In this document: positions 3,156 to 9,300 of the stretch, piece by piece | Layout of the letters: each line of letters begins with the position of its first letter | How positions within the stretch are numbered: position 1 is the stretch's first letter | NCBI GenBank assembly: GCA_022825385.1 | Contig: JAJDWX010000023.1 | Location: forward strand, 1-41,127 | DNA from: Rhodothermales bacterium | GTDB taxonomy: Bacteria; Bacteroidota; Rhodothermia; Rhodothermales; VXPQ01 | Length of the DNA stretch: 41,127 nucleotides | Direction: 5' to 3' | The notes under the pieces: model-generated | Seen by the model: only the letters and a program-made list of their open reading frames with translations | Told to the model about the DNA's origin: nothing | The model's database searches: none | Translations under genes and position numbers: made by a program

Positions 3156-4334
3156 CTACTTGATCCCCTGTTGCGCTGCTTTCTTGACCGCTGTCCAAGC
3201 ATTCCAAGCCGCTTCCCACGCGTAATAATGGGCGTGGAATTCGGGGGGATAATGGTCGCGGGGTTTACGTCCCAGGAAACTGCTATACTCCAAATGCTCA
3301 GACAGAGAATGCGAAGCCTTGGCCTTGGCCGCCAAAGCGTATTCCCGCGCCTCGGAGATATTTTCCCGCGCAGCCGAACCCCGTTCCTGCGCATTCGAAG
3401 CCTCCTTCCGAGCCGCCGCAACGTCAACTTCCCGCATGGTCACAGTCGTTTCGTGTGCCTTTACCTCCGCTTCACAGGCCGCCGCGCCCAGTTTTTGCAG
3501 TTCTGTTACCGCCGCGTCGCAATCTGCTTCGTCCCATTCCTCGGCTACTTCTCGCCATGCCCCGCAAACTGCGTAGAACGCCGCCGAAGCATCTTCCCCG
3601 GCATCCGAAGCCCGCTGTTCCCGAACCTCCGAAGCCTCCTTCTGGGCCAGCGCAAGATCGCGTTCTTTCAGCGCCAGACTCGCTTCGTGCGCTTTCGCCT
3701 CCGCTTCGTAGGCCGCCACAACCAGCTTTTGCACTTCTATGAGCGGCGTGCCGTCAACCCTTTCTTTCCACGCATCCGCTACCTCTTGCCATGCCTTCCA
3801 GGCCGCTCCCCACGCATAATAATGAATATGGAATTCCGGGGGGTACCCTTCGCCAGGAGGCTTTCCGAAAAAGGTGCCATACTTCAAATACTCGTCAGAA
3901 CATTTGTCAGCCTTGTTCCTGGCTGCCAAAGCATACTCCCGCGCCTCGGCAAGATTCTCTTTCGCACCCGAAGCCCGTTCCTGCGAATTCGAAACCCCCT
4001 TCCGGGCTGCCGCAACTTCAAGTTCGCGCATCGTCACAAGCGTTTCGTATGCCTTTGCCTCCGCTTCGAATGCCCCCGCAATCAGTTTTTGCAGTTCCTT
4101 CGTCGGCACACTGACGTCTGCTTCGTCCCAATCCTCCACTATGTCGCACCATGTTTCGCAAGTCGCTTCGAACGCCTCCGAAACATTCTCCTCTTCCTCG
4201 ATGGTCCGTTCGCGAATCTCGGAAATCTTCTCCTGCGTCAGCGCGATATCACGTTCCTTCAACGTGACAATCGCTTCGTACGCTTTCTCCTCTGCCTCGT
4301 ATGCCGTTACAACCAGTGTTTGTAGTTCTGTCAT
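3156..4334 (-). CDS. Internally duplicated, Ala/Glu-rich helical (coiled-coil-like) protein
   Basis: 392 residues from the ATG at 4334. This start is preferred because CTGGAGAAGACG directly precedes it, a good Shine-Dalgarno; an in-frame ATG 27 codons upstream has none. The protein is two tandem copies of a roughly 195-residue unit (about 3-195 and 200-385). Each unit is built from two related helical sub-repeats beginning ELQxL...A.EAE.KA.E (residues 3, 79, 200, 277). Each unit ends with a conserved YPPEFHxHYYAWxAAWxAW block (about 164-182 and 362-380). No signal peptide or membrane segment is seen. Composition (Ala, Glu, Lys) predicts long amphipathic helices. I know no named family. The aromatic block kept in both copies suggests a functional surface rather than simple low complexity. 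No partner gene is adjacent on the same strand within 200 bp except the AT-rich gene at 4604. Confidence 0.75.
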   Translation of the reverse strand: MTELQTLVVTAYEAEEKAYEAIVTLKERDIALTQEKISEIRERTIEEEENVSEAFEATCETWCDIVEDWDEADVSVPTKELQKLIAGAFEAEAKAYETLVTMRELEVAAARKGVSNSQERASGAKENLAEAREYALAARNKADKCSDEYLKYGTFFGKPPGEGYPPEFHIHYYAWGAAWKAWQEVADAWKERVDGTPLIEVQKLVVAAYEAEAKAHEASLALKERDLALAQKEASEVREQRASDAGEDASAAFYAVCGAWREVAEEWDEADCDAAVTELQKLGAAACEAEVKAHETTVTMREVDVAAARKEASNAQERGSAARENISEAREYALAAKAKASHSLSEHLEYSSFLGRKPRDHYPPEFHAHYYAWEAAWNAWTAVKKAAQQGIK

Positions 4335-4603
4335 CGTCTTCTCCAGGTTTGTAAGTGAATGGGATGCCCCACGTTGTTCCGCAGTCTCCAAATTCGAATC
4401 AAAATACGCGCCCATCCGCCGCTCGCCGGGATTGCTTCGCTCTCCCTAAATGGACAGATTTCTGGAGTTTTCTCTGTGTAGGCTTGAGTTTAAGCGGCTT
4501 TGGCCTACAGTATACGACATTGAGGCGATAATGTCAAGGGGTTTCGCGTTTTTTTTGCTAACTTATCCAAATGAATCGCGCCTCGGTTTGTTCTTTTTAA
4601 AAA
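4335..4603. other. Intergenic stretch without a gene
   Basis: About 270 bases between two minus-strand genes. It contains a T8 run near 4550 and AT-rich DNA after 4550, marking the composition change into the low-GC gene at 4604. No convincing reading frame, tRNA or terminator is seen. Confidence 0.5.
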
Positions 4604-5248
4604 TTAAGGGAGCTGCCACAAAAATAGATCAAGTTTTTTAACATCAGTGAAACCATTGAATTTTGGAAAATTATTGTCAAATAAAATTTGCCATTGTTTA
4701 GAACAATTTTTGTAAATTGTATTATCAATGCATGTTTTTATTTCTAAATATTTGTTATTGTAGATATTTAATTTTCTTCCATATCCAATTCTTTTTAATC
4801 CAAGATTTTTTAAAACATTTGTGTCCCATACTGGCAATTTTGGATTGATTGTAGCAACAAGTTTGGAACAGAAAGATGCTTCATATCTTCCGGTTATATT
4901 GTAAAATTCTTCTAGAACACTATAAAATAAAATATTATTATTATTATATTTTTCGCGTTCAAGAATTTCAAAAAATATTCCATACAAGTTTTTATGTGAT
5001 GTTTTTGAAATCAATTTTATAGGGCAATCTTTTGGAAAGCCATCCAAAGGCCAACGCATTCTATAATAAGATCTAAATGTTGCTTGGTATTTATTGTTTT
5101 TTTCAACATTGCATTTCAATAATGAATCTTGAAGATAAAAATATTGATTAAGTTTTTTATGATTTAGGCGCGTTATAACCATGTTCATGTTTTTTGTATT
5201 AAGTTTTGAACAGAGGAGTTGAGAGCATGTAGTATGTTGTCCGTTCAT
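4604..5248 (-). CDS. AT-rich hypothetical protein, 214 aa
   Basis: The start is taken at ATG 5248 (MNGQHTTC) because TTGGAGACCAAA precedes it; upstream in-frame codons lack such a site. The protein is rich in Asn, Lys, Tyr and Ile, and its DNA is far more AT-rich than its neighbours. Recognisable points are ASFCSKLVATINPKLPVWDTNVLKNLGLK (about 131-159) and a Trp/Phe-rich C-terminus. The phrase SKLxATINPxxPVWDxxVLxNL occurs in a group of short hypothetical proteins that I know only as conserved hypotheticals, perhaps related in fold to helix-hairpin-helix base-excision proteins; that last point is a guess. No membrane segment or signal peptide is seen. Low GC suggests recent transfer. Confidence 0.6.
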   Translation of the reverse strand: MNGQHTTCSQLLCSKLNTKNMNMVITRLNHKKLNQYFYLQDSLLKCNVEKNNKYQATFRSYYRMRWPLDGFPKDCPIKLISKTSHKNLYGIFFEILEREKYNNNNILFYSVLEEFYNITGRYEASFCSKLVATINPKLPVWDTNVLKNLGLKRIGYGRKLNIYNNKYLEIKTCIDNTIYKNCSKQWQILFDNNFPKFNGFTDVKKLDLFLWQLP

Positions 5249-5492: not shown

Positions 5493-7649
5493 TTACGCCA
5501 CCGGAGAGAATCCTATGGACCCCGGCAGGTTTGGCTTGGCTTCGCACTCTTCTCGGAGCATGGCGACCAGCGCATCGGCATCGTCCAGTTGGCCTGTGAT
5601 TTCGGCCTTGTGGCGAACCACTGCAAAGTCGCCGGGCGTGAGTCCTTGCAGGCTCGACAGCGCGGCCGGCGGTTCCATCCCGAAGTAGAGCCGAAACAGG
5701 CCCGCCGCCTGCTCGGTCGAACTGTAGCCGAACCGCACTTTGAACACGAAGCGGCGATGCGTGGCGACGTCCAGCTTCTCCGTGTAGTTCGTGGTGCAGG
5801 CGAACGGCAACGGGTGCGATTCCATCTGGGTCAGCAGCTCGTTCACCTGGATCACTTCCCAGTTGTGATGCGCCCCGCGCCGATCCGCCAGAAGCGAATC
5901 TGCCTCGTCGATTATCAGGAACGAACGGGTAGCGAGCGCTTCCTCGAACGCCCTGGCGATATTCTGCTCCGATTCCCCTACGTACTTGTCCAGCAAATCA
6001 GACGCGCGCTTGTGCAGCACTTCCATGCCCATGCGGTCGGCCAGGTAGCGCACATAGGCGCTTTTTCCGGTTCCCGGCGGGCCGTGCAAGCACAGGGACA
6101 GGGGTTGGGCGCCGCGCCGGGTCAGCCGGTCTGCGAGAGCGACCAGGTCCTGATCCGCCTGGATGAACGTAGGATCGAAACGCGCAGGCGTAGATTGCAC
6201 GCGCCGTTTGCCCCCCATCAGAGCCGCTATATGCCGCAAGCTGCGCTCAAGCATGGCCAGCCTTTCCGCTTCCGGCACAAGGGCCGCCGCGCGTATCGGA
6301 CCTTCCATGACGCCGGGCGCCATATCGAATTCGCGCACAAGCCGGGCCACCTGCGCCGGTTCGATGTGCACCTTGTGCCTTTCCAACTGGCGCGTCAGGA
6401 TTCGTTCCCGCACCTGCAAGGGCGGTTTCCGAATGTGTACCACATACGTCATGCGGCGAAGGAAGGCCGGGTCGATGGAAGCCGCATGGTTCGTGGTCCA
6501 GATGGTGGGCGCCGCATTTTCCTCCAGGAGCCGGTTCAGGAACAGTTTGGAGCCATCGCTTCGATGCCTTCTCCCAAAAAACAACCCGAAGGACATGGGG
6601 CCTGGAAAGCCCCCGCCCAGGATATCGTCCATCTCGTCGAACAAGAGGAGCGCGTTCGGATCTTTCCCCAGCAGGCGCCCTGCCAGACCGAGGTCTGCGA
6701 GGCGCTCGCTCCGCGACGGTTCGTTGCCGCGCTCGTCTTTCTCTCCGCCGCTGAACAGGGTTGCGCCAAGCCGGTTGGCCAACACCTTCGACAGTTCCGT
6801 TTTGCCCGTGCCGTTCGGTCCGTACAGCAGGATGTTGACGCCTTTTTTTCCTTCCTGGAGCGCCCCGAGGAGCATTTGCTCCAGCCTATCCCGGTCGTCG
6901 GCAACATGGTCGAAGTCGCACCAGTCCAGTTCCGTCGGCGCGCTGGCGTCGAGCAACAGGCGGCGCACATCCGTCTCTTCTTCGGGTGCCCAGGCGATCT
7001 TTTTCAGCCGGGACGGAATATCGATGTCGCCATCGGAATCCATGTTCAGCAGGCCGGAAGCGACGAGCGGCGCATCGACGGCGAGGCGCCTGCCAATGGT
7101 TTTGGGGTTCATGTCCAGAAAGCAGGACATCACGGCCTTGCCAATACCGCTCGGTCCAAATCGCCGGGCCCTGGTAATGCTATCCACCAGCGATTCGAGG
7201 AACGGCTGCGTCTCGTAGCGCAATGGGAGCTCCAGGATGGCCACGTCTTCCGGCGAGAGGCGAGCGATTTCGGCGAGTTCTGCCAGGCGGGTGGACAGGA
7301 GGTCCGGCGCAACGCTTTCCGCTTGGCTGGCCAGGCATTCGACATGCTTCCGCAAGTCGCGCCATGCCTTGTCCGAGTTCGTGGCCTTCTCTGCCTCGTC
7401 GGAGTGGTCCGGCATTCTCCCGCGCCGCTTGACCGGGATGCTCTTCGTAGCCTCGACAAACGCGGTCTCGTCTCCAGCCCGAAGGCCCTCGCACAGGTCC
7501 AGAATGTGCTCCTCTATCCATTCGATCAATGCCCCGGCCTCGTCGCTTCGGCGATGGACGCGTTTCATGGCGTTGCCAAGCCATACAAGGGCCAGATAGC
7601 GTTGGTAGTCGGTGTCGTTTGCTTTACTTATCATAGTATGCGCGCTCAT
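5493..7649 (-). CDS. Tandem AAA+ ATPase (CDC48/FtsH-type ATPase modules, no protease)
   Basis: 718 residues from ATG 7649. An N-terminal helical region (1-240) precedes two AAA+ modules. Module 1 has Walker A GPNGTGKT (277-284), Walker B LLLFDEMD (334-341), sensor-1 TTN (385-387) and an Arg-finger pair RR (398-399). Module 2 has Walker A GPPGTGKS (523-530), pore-like YVGESE (556-561), Walker B LIIDEAD (578-584), TTN (619-621) and RR (632-633). Both modules therefore look active. No protease, HNH or transmembrane domain is attached, so the likely role is an unfoldase or remodelling ATPase. The start codon overlaps the stop of a 31-codon ORF (ATGA). Similarity between that ORF and the protein beginning at the internal ATG 7634 makes MISKANDT an alternative start. 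It is transcribed away from the Xre-ImmA gene at 8174 across a shared regulatory region. Confidence 0.85.
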   Translation of the reverse strand: MSAHTMISKANDTDYQRYLALVWLGNAMKRVHRRSDEAGALIEWIEEHILDLCEGLRAGDETAFVEATKSIPVKRRGRMPDHSDEAEKATNSDKAWRDLRKHVECLASQAESVAPDLLSTRLAELAEIARLSPEDVAILELPLRYETQPFLESLVDSITRARRFGPSGIGKAVMSCFLDMNPKTIGRRLAVDAPLVASGLLNMDSDGDIDIPSRLKKIAWAPEEETDVRRLLLDASAPTELDWCDFDHVADDRDRLEQMLLGALQEGKKGVNILLYGPNGTGKTELSKVLANRLGATLFSGGEKDERGNEPSRSERLADLGLAGRLLGKDPNALLLFDEMDDILGGGFPGPMSFGLFFGRRHRSDGSKLFLNRLLEENAAPTIWTTNHAASIDPAFLRRMTYVVHIRKPPLQVRERILTRQLERHKVHIEPAQVARLVREFDMAPGVMEGPIRAAALVPEAERLAMLERSLRHIAALMGGKRRVQSTPARFDPTFIQADQDLVALADRLTRRGAQPLSLCLHGPPGTGKSAYVRYLADRMGMEVLHKRASDLLDKYVGESEQNIARAFEEALATRSFLIIDEADSLLADRRGAHHNWEVIQVNELLTQMESHPLPFACTTNYTEKLDVATHRRFVFKVRFGYSSTEQAAGLFRLYFGMEPPAALSSLQGLTPGDFAVVRHKAEITGQLDDADALVAMLREECEAKPNLPGSIGFSPVA

Positions 7650-7741
7650 GTTATATTGGGGGTTTGCGGGTGGATGAAGTCGGCGCCCCATACGAGGGCC
7701 GTGTAGCGTTGGCACGCGGTGCCGTTTGGTTTCTTTCCCAT
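7646..7741 (-). CDS. 31-aa ORF overlapping the AAA+ start; partial duplicate of the AAA+ N-terminus
   Basis: ATG 7741 to TGA 7646-7648, with the stop sharing ATGA with the AAA+ start. The peptide begins MGKKPNGTACQRYTALVW. Aligned with the AAA+ protein from its internal methionine (MISKANDTDYQRYLALVW), 11 of 18 positions are identical, and the DNA is similar too. It is either a leader peptide that couples translation of the ATPase or the stump of a duplicated ATPase gene. It is preceded by GCAGAGACT, a weak ribosome binding site. Confidence 0.45.
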   Translation of the reverse strand: MGKKPNGTACQRYTALVWGADFIHPQTPNIT

Positions 7742-7820
7742 AGTCTCTGCGGTTTATGGTCGTCGATGACGTCGGTTGGCCGGGTTCTCCCCGTCGGGCC
7801 CGCCGTACGAGCGGGCGGGA

Positions 7821-7831
7821 TGTACTGTACA
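7821..7831. promoter_or_regulatory. Palindrome TGTACTGTACA between divergent AAA+ and Xre-ImmA genes
   Basis: A perfect 11-bp palindrome lies in the 432-bp divergent intergenic region, beside a second inverted repeat (GCCCGC ... GCGGGC, 7798-7816). Its place upstream of both genes, one of which encodes an HTH_Xre protein, makes it a candidate operator. No binding evidence exists in the sequence. Confidence 0.35.
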
Positions 7832-7978
7832 AACAAGATAAGCAGCACAATCTAAATATGCAAGTATCAGTTTACAAAAAAATACAATCAACAATACACA
7901 TTTTGTGCACAGAGTGGCTTTTTTCATGGTGGAAAGGTCGTGCGAACTGGCCAAGTAGCCTCTTCGCAAAAACATCAC

Positions 7979-8007
7979 TTGACAATATTAATAATTGTAA
8001 ATAAAAG
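7979..8007 (+). promoter_or_regulatory. Candidate sigma70-type promoter for the Xre-ImmA gene
   Basis: TTGACA (7979-7984), a 17-nt spacer and TAAAAG (8002-8007) lie in AT-rich DNA ahead of the gene starting at 8174. The -35 box is perfect and the -10 box weak. The predicted leader would be about 160 nt. The rest of the 7742-8173 interval shows no gene. Confidence 0.4.
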
Positions 8008-8173
8008 ATTTATAGCAAAAAAAGCATGTTCATTGCTTGGCATTGCCGAACAAAGCAAAAAAATTCCTATCTTCTCGCACAAGCGCCTGATGCAGGCAAT
8101 AGCGCAGAAATTGCCCGCCCATCGCAGGGCATGAAGGACCCCGTGAGTACATCCTTGCTTTCATACGCACGAC

Positions 8174-9181
8174 ATGGGATCACTTTCCGAATCAGAGGAG
8201 CTTTACAAGCGCATAGGACAGAACGTGGCCAAAAAGCGCCGCGAACTCGAACTTTCGCAGACCAAGCTGGCGGAGCGCTGTGGCGTTACGCGGGGTTCCA
8301 TTGCGAATATCGAGAGCGGAAAACAGCGCGCCACGCTGCAAACGCTTTCGGATATTGCAGAAGCGCTCGAAGTGGATATGCTTTCGCTGTTCGCTTCGTC
8401 CGAAGCAGATGCGAAAGGCGAAAGCAAGGCGTCGGATAGTTCCTCCTCAGCCTGGTTGCGGGAAAAACCGCTTGCTTTCTTGCTCGGAACGCTTCTCGGC
8501 GGGGGCAGTCTTGCTGCTCTACCCATACGTGCTGGGCTTGTTGGCCTTGTCCCCGGGGTGGGGGGCGTTGTAGCGGCCTCGGCGGCGACAGCCATAGTGG
8601 CTCGCAAACTGGTCCAGAAGATGGGTGCTGAGGATTCTTCCAGGGATGCCGCCTCATCGCCTCCCATTCCGATCAAAAAACTCGAAAAGCAGGCGGAGAA
8701 CCTTGTACGGGAAGCGGGCATAACGAAAATCCCGGTGCCCGTGGGGGCGGTTGCGAAACATCTTGGCATTGAGGTCGCTGAGGAGGATCTTGGCGAAGAC
8801 TGCTCTGGAATTTTGATCAGGGAGGGGGATTCCGCCGTGATCGGCGTCCATGCGGACCACCACGAGCACCGCAAGCGCTTCACCATCGCGCACGAGATAG
8901 CACATTATATATTACATACGGGAGAAGCCTATATCGACCAGTTTCACATCGACTTGCGCAGCAACAACCCCGGCTCTGCCACGAAGCAGGAAGAAGACGA
9001 AGCCAATCGATTCGCGGGGGCGCTGCTTATGCCCGCCGATCAGGTTCGGAAAGCGTTCGCGGAGCAGCGCGTCGATCCGTCCCGGGACGACGAAATACCG
9101 GAGATGGCCAAACGGTTCAAGGTCAGCGTACAGGCCATGACCAAGCGCCTGATGCATCTCGACCTGATTTCAGCGGATTGA
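8174..9181 (+). CDS. Xre-family HTH fused to ImmA/IrrE (DUF955) metallopeptidase, with central hydrophobic segment
   Basis: 335 residues. An N-terminal HTH_3/Xre domain (about 10-72, SQTKLAERCGVTRGSIANIESGK) binds DNA in this family. The C-terminal ImmA/IrrE zinc metallopeptidase domain (about 170-330) carries HEIAH at 240-244 and the distal glutamate in EEDEANRFAGALLMP (E276). Such proteases cleave or inactivate repressors under stress or phage induction. Between the domains lies an unusual Gly/Ala-rich hydrophobic stretch (about 98-145, with GTLLGGGSLAALP and GLVPGVGGVVAASAATAIVA) long enough for two membrane passes, which typical Xre-ImmA fusions lack. It is transcribed divergently from the AAA+ gene, so it may regulate it. 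The start ATG 8174 has no strong ribosome binding site. Domain calls are firm; the partner is inferred. Confidence 0.88.
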   Translation: MGSLSESEELYKRIGQNVAKKRRELELSQTKLAERCGVTRGSIANIESGKQRATLQTLSDIAEALEVDMLSLFASSEADAKGESKASDSSSSAWLREKPLAFLLGTLLGGGSLAALPIRAGLVGLVPGVGGVVAASAATAIVARKLVQKMGAEDSSRDAASSPPIPIKKLEKQAENLVREAGITKIPVPVGAVAKHLGIEVAEEDLGEDCSGILIREGDSAVIGVHADHHEHRKRFTIAHEIAHYILHTGEAYIDQFHIDLRSNNPGSATKQEEDEANRFAGALLMPADQVRKAFAEQRVDPSRDDEIPEMAKRFKVSVQAMTKRLMHLDLISAD

Positions 9182-9190
9182 TTCCAAGAG

Positions 9191-9300
9191 ATTGAGGCCG
9201 CCCCAGCGGAATGCATGTGAATTGAAGGCTGCCCCAGCGGAATTTATGTGAATTGAAGGCCGCTCCAGGGAAATGCACGAGAATGGAGCCCGCCCCATCC
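9191..9300. repeat. Tandem repeat of about 30-31 bp, 3.5 copies
   Basis: Copies at 9191-9220, 9221-9251, 9252-9282 and a partial one at 9283-9300 share ATTGAAGGCCGCCCCAG and then GGAAT...ATGTGA, with a few differences between copies. They fill the space between the convergent ends of the Xre-ImmA and ABC transporter genes. The array has no conserved palindrome and no unique spacers, so it is not CRISPR. Confidence 0.75.

Follow-up and report, generated by a model that had tools for sequence, protein, structure and literature searches.

A tandem AAA+ ATPase divergent from an XRE-M78 repressor-protease fusion in a Rhodothermales genome: a candidate accessory module

Results

Layout of the locus

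The window (the whole 41,127-nucleotide stretch of Rhodothermales DNA that was analysed) contains a gene for a 718-residue ATPase with two intact AAA+ modules. It is divergent from a gene encoding a 335-residue fusion of an XRE helix-turn-helix (HTH) domain and an M78 zinc protease. A sequence-only reading of this DNA had described the same arrangement, a tandem AAA+ protein divergent from an Xre-ImmA fusion, and this is borne out by the domain matches, the intact motifs and the gene orientation. The features are as follows.

4604..5245, minus strand: variable third gene, 3' of the ATPase; 213-residue helical protein with a predicted fold like HhH-GPD DNA glycosylases
5493..7649, minus strand: tandem AAA+ ATPase, 718 residues; alternative start ATG at 7634
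7646..7741, minus strand: short ORF (MGKKPNGTACQRYTALVWGADFIHPQTPNIT) upstream of the ATPase; its TGA overlaps the ATPase ATG (ATGA)
7979..7998, plus strand: TTGACAATATTAATAATTGT, a -35-like hexamer (TTGACA) overlapping ACAAT-N7-ATTGT; candidate XRE operator, predicted function
8174..9181, plus strand: fusion of XRE HTH, Gly/Ala hydrophobic linker and M78 (ImmA/IrrE) zinc protease, 335 residues
8465..8611, plus strand: hydrophobic Gly/Ala segment of the fusion, residues about 98-146, outside the HTH and M78 domains

The tandem AAA+ ATPase

The Pfam AAA family matches the ATPase in two stretches (E 3e-36). The Walker A, Walker B, sensor-1 Asn and Arg-finger positions are intact in both modules. 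Module 1 has Walker A GPNGTGKT at residue 277 and Walker B LLLFDEMDD at 334, and module 2 has GPPGTGKS at 523 and FLIIDEADS at 577. Module 2 also contains an aromatic pore-loop-like sequence, DKYVGES, at residue 554. This position is conserved in a comparison with nine homologues (KYV, MWV, KWV and the like), and in the same comparison module 1 is without it. The protein belongs to phrog_10401 (ATPase) across both modules (E 1.8e-70, residues 102-707, profile positions 67-658 of 667).

The ORF listed for the ATPase, 5493-7850, is over-extended, and the conserved protein begins at the ATG at 7649 or that at 7634. The first 54 nucleotides of the short upstream ORF are similar to the 5' end of the ATPase gene and represent a partial duplication. 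In the nearest relative, locus L006, the DNA of this ORF is conserved and the layout is identical to that of the window.

The spacer between the two genes

Measured from the corrected ATPase start, the spacer is 524 bp long (7650-8173) and not the 0.4 kb given by the sequence-only reading, which had also drawn attention to a perfect palindrome and to promoter boxes. The spacer contains three 8-bp perfect palindromes, against 2.6 expected by chance, and relatives do not keep the one at 7904, TGTGCACA. The palindrome is ruled out as an operator because of this chance-level number and lack of conservation. The promoter boxes fare no better, with 2 promoter-like matches where 0.7 +/- 0.9 are expected, a non-significant excess. 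Judging from the sequence, the better operator candidate for the XRE protein would be the ACAAT-N7-ATTGT pattern (ACAATATTAATAATTGT) at 7982-7998, which overlaps TTGACA and occurs once in the whole window. The element at 7979-7998 is identical in L006, and a third locus, L035, keeps only part of it.

The XRE-M78 fusion and its hydrophobic segment

The XRE HTH spans residues 19-69 (HTH_3, E 8.7e-14) and the M78 domain residues 194-327 (Peptidase_M78, E 3.8e-24), with HEIAH at 240 and EEDEAN at 273. Between them lies the Gly/Ala hydrophobic segment of about 50 residues that the sequence-only reading had noted. By the domain matches it is outside the M78 domain. The same reading had placed the segment near a membrane, and here the evidence is divided. 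Its Kyte-Doolittle maxima over 19 residues are 1.88 and 1.82, both above the 1.6 line, and the similar segment of the L035 fusion reaches 1.74 and 1.57. On the other side, flat biological-scale sums for the window segment are +3.5 to +4.8, unfavourable to membrane insertion, and in the L006 fusion the first half is replaced by hydrophilic sequence. Membrane placement is thus weakly suggested, by borderline hydrophobicity in a segment of which half is absent from one orthologue. An AlphaFold2 model of the fusion, built from three sequences, has a pLDDT of 49; it is confident in the HTH alone and uninformative across the segment.

The L006 and window fusions are 67% identical; their M78 parts are close (dN 0.09) and their linkers very divergent (dN 0.75). 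Purifying selection acts on both members of the pair (dN/dS 0.34 and 0.48 in the comparison with L006), and they change faster than the adjoining core genes (dN/dS 0.08).

Neighbouring genes

The third gene encodes a protein of 200-213 residues in the window and L006. In genome G298, from which L035 comes, the third gene is instead an Mrr_cat nuclease (E 1.3e-10), and this gene adjoins a C-terminal remnant of a second ATPase copy (L035 7958-8245). A structure model of the window protein, built from six relatives, of which three come from viral contigs, is confident (pLDDT 88). Foldseek found no match to it below E 0.001, and a PDB sequence search with the profile of the third gene gave spurious matches only. 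A second structural alignment returned mostly HhH-GPD DNA glycosylases, the best with a modest Z of 7.1 over 159 aligned residues; the tool itself cautions that Z values of 7 to 8 turn up often, so the glycosylase likeness is a lead and not a finding.

Further left are a 419-residue protein (3156-4415), an EcsC-family protein (1843-2502) and a weak GmrSD-like restriction protein (177-1649, E 0.005). The 419-residue protein has no Pfam or NCBIfam match and consists of two halves that resemble each other (about 73% identical at the DNA level in the L006 comparison); its DNA is 94% conserved in L006. In the gap between the fusion gene and an ABC-transporter gene, imperfect repeats of about 35 bp (GGCnGCnCCAGnG..AATG..TGAAT) are visible by eye at 9190-9290.

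Distribution within the genus

Six genomes of the genus were searched for the ATPase and the XRE-M78 fusion. The divergent pair is present in the same order in three of them (G000, G296 and G298), and the other three (G297, G299 and G300) have no complete copy of either gene. Neither gene was found in G299 or G300, the absence from G300 being weaker evidence because that genome is 87% complete. G297 is without such an ATPase and retains a 43-residue scrap of the M78 C-terminus, which lies some 3.6 kb away from the same ABC-transporter gene.

The immediate flanks and third gene of the G298 pair differ from those of the window. A different locus is not claimable for G298, as both contigs end nearby. 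The flanking genes in G298, a second XRE-M78 gene and a sigma factor, are found within about 12 kb of the same ABC-transporter gene in G297. The region beside this transporter is variable across the genus, with another XRE-M78 gene there in G297 and G299. This second, different XRE-M78 gene of the sister genomes' variable region lies at L035 13466-14533, L054 6571-7653 and L055 7164-8312; that of L055 adjoins a large nuclease/helicase-type gene resembling L035 1834-5325.

The ATPase family beyond the genus

A nine-row ATPase profile matches 41 of 398 sampled Pseudomonadota genomes at a threshold of 1e-60. In the window's own order 4 of 114 genomes match, including G729 from another genus, whose ATPase has no M78 neighbour. 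Neighbouring M78 and WYL genes were scored with HMMs built for this analysis, and the counts are lower bounds because some fetched stretches are short. Outside the genus a WYL regulator gene occurs at 21 of 57 ATPase loci, at a distance of 2-5 kb in four (L211, L212, L238 and L244) and closer in 17. The co-conservation expected of the two-gene module that the sequence-only reading had proposed holds within the genus, as joint presence and absence in the six genomes, and does not extend outside it, where an M78 neighbour was found at none of the 57 ATPase loci within the fetched stretches.

In a tree of the family the M78-paired ATPases form one clade (100/100 support), with the G729 copy as its sister. 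Together these are nested in a larger clade with WYL-paired members, and WYL-paired ATPases are scattered over several parts of the tree.

The surroundings of 14 plasmid copies were examined: a WYL gene lies no more than 2 kb away in 11 of them, and a nuclease gene of the PD-(D/E)XK, DUF2779 or TM0106 type no more than 6 kb away in 10; the PD-(D/E)XK nucleases are RecB-like. Other plasmid neighbours are ADP-ribosylglycohydrolase, BREX and phospholipase-D genes, with a weak match to Azaca at some (ZacB, E 8e-8). An ATPase-WYL pair is also present on one prophage-like contig. A viral contig carries a full-length tandem ATPase (L063 5491-7539) with no WYL or M78 gene in the fetched stretch. The wider family lies in defence-like surroundings, and control of the window pair may be phage-inducible, as the sequence-only reading suggested. 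A defence role is not general, because many homologues lie in housekeeping-like surroundings with no WYL or M78 neighbour.

Comparison with known systems

M78 proteases cleave XRE-type repressors (PMC10904395, PMC2701414). In PprI-DdrO the M78 peptidase cuts the repressor when ssDNA is present (PMC10904395), and CapP-CapH is cited in the same article as acting likewise with ssDNA. Control of an adjacent operon by repressor cleavage is an established M78 mechanism (PMC10904395, PMC13373217), which makes its extension to an ATPase, as first suggested from the sequence, plausible.

CapP is the best match of the M78 half of the fusion (E 2.3e-38), and its HTH resembles CapH (E 3.9e-7). In both cases an HTH and an M78 protease stand beside an accessory operon. 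CapH and CapP are two proteins found at CBASS and other immune operons, whereas the window protein is a single chain with a hydrophobic linker, fused also in L006 and L035, and is divergent from an AAA+ gene rather than placed at a CBASS operon. The capP model matches at positions 3-154 of 242, stopping 5 residues before the end of the fusion and leaving about 90 model positions uncovered. The fusion apparently has no counterpart of the C-terminal sensor part found in CapP/PprI. We do not assign it to CapH+CapP, which requires separate proteins and the CapP C-terminal part.

COG2856-Xre fusion proteins have long been known (Makarova 2009, PMC2701414), and the window protein, with an XRE HTH and an M78 HEXXH protease in one chain encoded in accessory DNA, is of this kind. 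The known partners are PIN or RelE toxins; here the partner is a tandem AAA+ ATPase, and the fusion has its Gly/Ala linker. The WYL-associated loci of Pseudomonadota plasmids and a prophage encode the same ATPase family (28-45% identity) but have, unlike the window, a WYL regulator followed by nuclease (PD-(D/E)XK, DUF2779) or phospholipase-D type genes.

Module 2 resembles IetA of IetAS, an AAA ATPase with a subtilisin-type protease. The window ATPase has two AAA modules, scores 105.7 against an NCBIfam cut-off of 510, and its scanned flanking ORFs gave no match to a serine protease family, so it is not IetAS. The fusion gives matches to PADLOC RmrA models and to the NCBIfam model of the spr1629 antitoxin, but the latter scores 71.9 against a cut-off of 335 and membership of Rosmer/spr1629 is rejected. 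A general family-library scan of the flanking ORFs named none as an RmrT/RipA-type toxin. A search of the open-access literature found no named system for the pair.

Discussion

We propose that the locus is an accessory module whose tandem AAA+ remodeller is silenced by the divergent XRE-M78 fusion and released by cleavage, the fusion standing in for a WYL regulator; we give this reading about an even chance (roughly 50%). The HTH would bind an operator in the spacer and keep the ATPase gene silent. A stress signal, probably of the DNA damage or invasion class, would lead the M78 protease to cut the linker of its own chain or of a dimer partner, and with the HTH freed, the ATPase gene and the one that follows it would be de-repressed. 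The ATPase may then thread a protein substrate through module 2. The fusion gene would fill a position that at the loci of related ATPases is probably taken by WYL regulators. We read it as a lineage-specific regulator swap because published work presents CapW/BrxR (WYL) and CapH+CapP as alternatives for controlling the immune operons next to them (PMC13373217). Several observations count against this reading: the pair has turned up in just three genomes, all of them related; the fusion is apparently short of the CapP C-terminal part; the operator candidate is incomplete in L035; and the many homologues in housekeeping-like surroundings make a defence role less than general.

The two genes could instead have nothing to do with each other and simply share a variable region, with the ATPase a stand-alone remodeller and the fusion regulating only itself or other genes. 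The variability of the site by the ABC transporter, where another XRE-M78 gene occurs in two genomes, and the lack of M78 neighbours outside the genus agree with this, but all three ATPase-bearing genomes of the genus have the same divergent pair, including G298 with its other flanks and third gene, and the remaining genomes lack both; we consider it unlikely. Somewhat less probable again is a toxin-antitoxin relationship, as in Rosmer/RipAB, with the fusion directly restraining a toxic ATPase or third gene. The RmrA and spr1629 matches point this way, and RipB is an XRE-ImmA-type antitoxin (PMC12795458). The low spr1629 score counts against it, as do the divergent genes, which form no operon, and the many ATPase homologues without such a partner.

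The hydrophobic segment suggests a further, doubtful alternative, in which a Gly/Ala hairpin or glycine zipper tethers the regulator to the membrane, senses envelope damage (phage entry or pores) and triggers the cleavage that frees the HTH. The Kyte-Doolittle maxima in the window and L035 and the missing CapP-type C-terminal part are in keeping with this; the unfavourable biological-scale sums, the loss of the first stretch in L006 and the uninformative structure model are against it. The hydrophobic stretch might conceivably be the signal-sensing part of a fusion that lacks the CapP C-terminus. Least probable of the readings is a defence module with an M78 switch coupled to the membrane, in which a membrane-associated, self-cleaving repressor-protease would sense envelope or entry damage, free its HTH and switch on a tandem AAA+ unfoldase whose DNA-acting partners (glycosylase-fold protein, Mrr nuclease) are exchangeable.

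Returning to the proposed regulator swap, the simplest reading is that a fused HTH-M78 switch serves this genus in the position filled by WYL in its relatives. The locus looks like known parts in a combination undescribed in the open-access literature searched, newly wired but not a system of a new kind. It draws attention to a widespread and apparently unnamed tandem AAA+ family, often with WYL regulators, and with nucleases on plasmids, and to one lineage where a fused HTH-protease stands at the place of WYL in relatives. Once tested, the locus would extend the range of operons known to be run by interchangeable stress controllers, and it would provide a compact one-chain repressor-protease for study.
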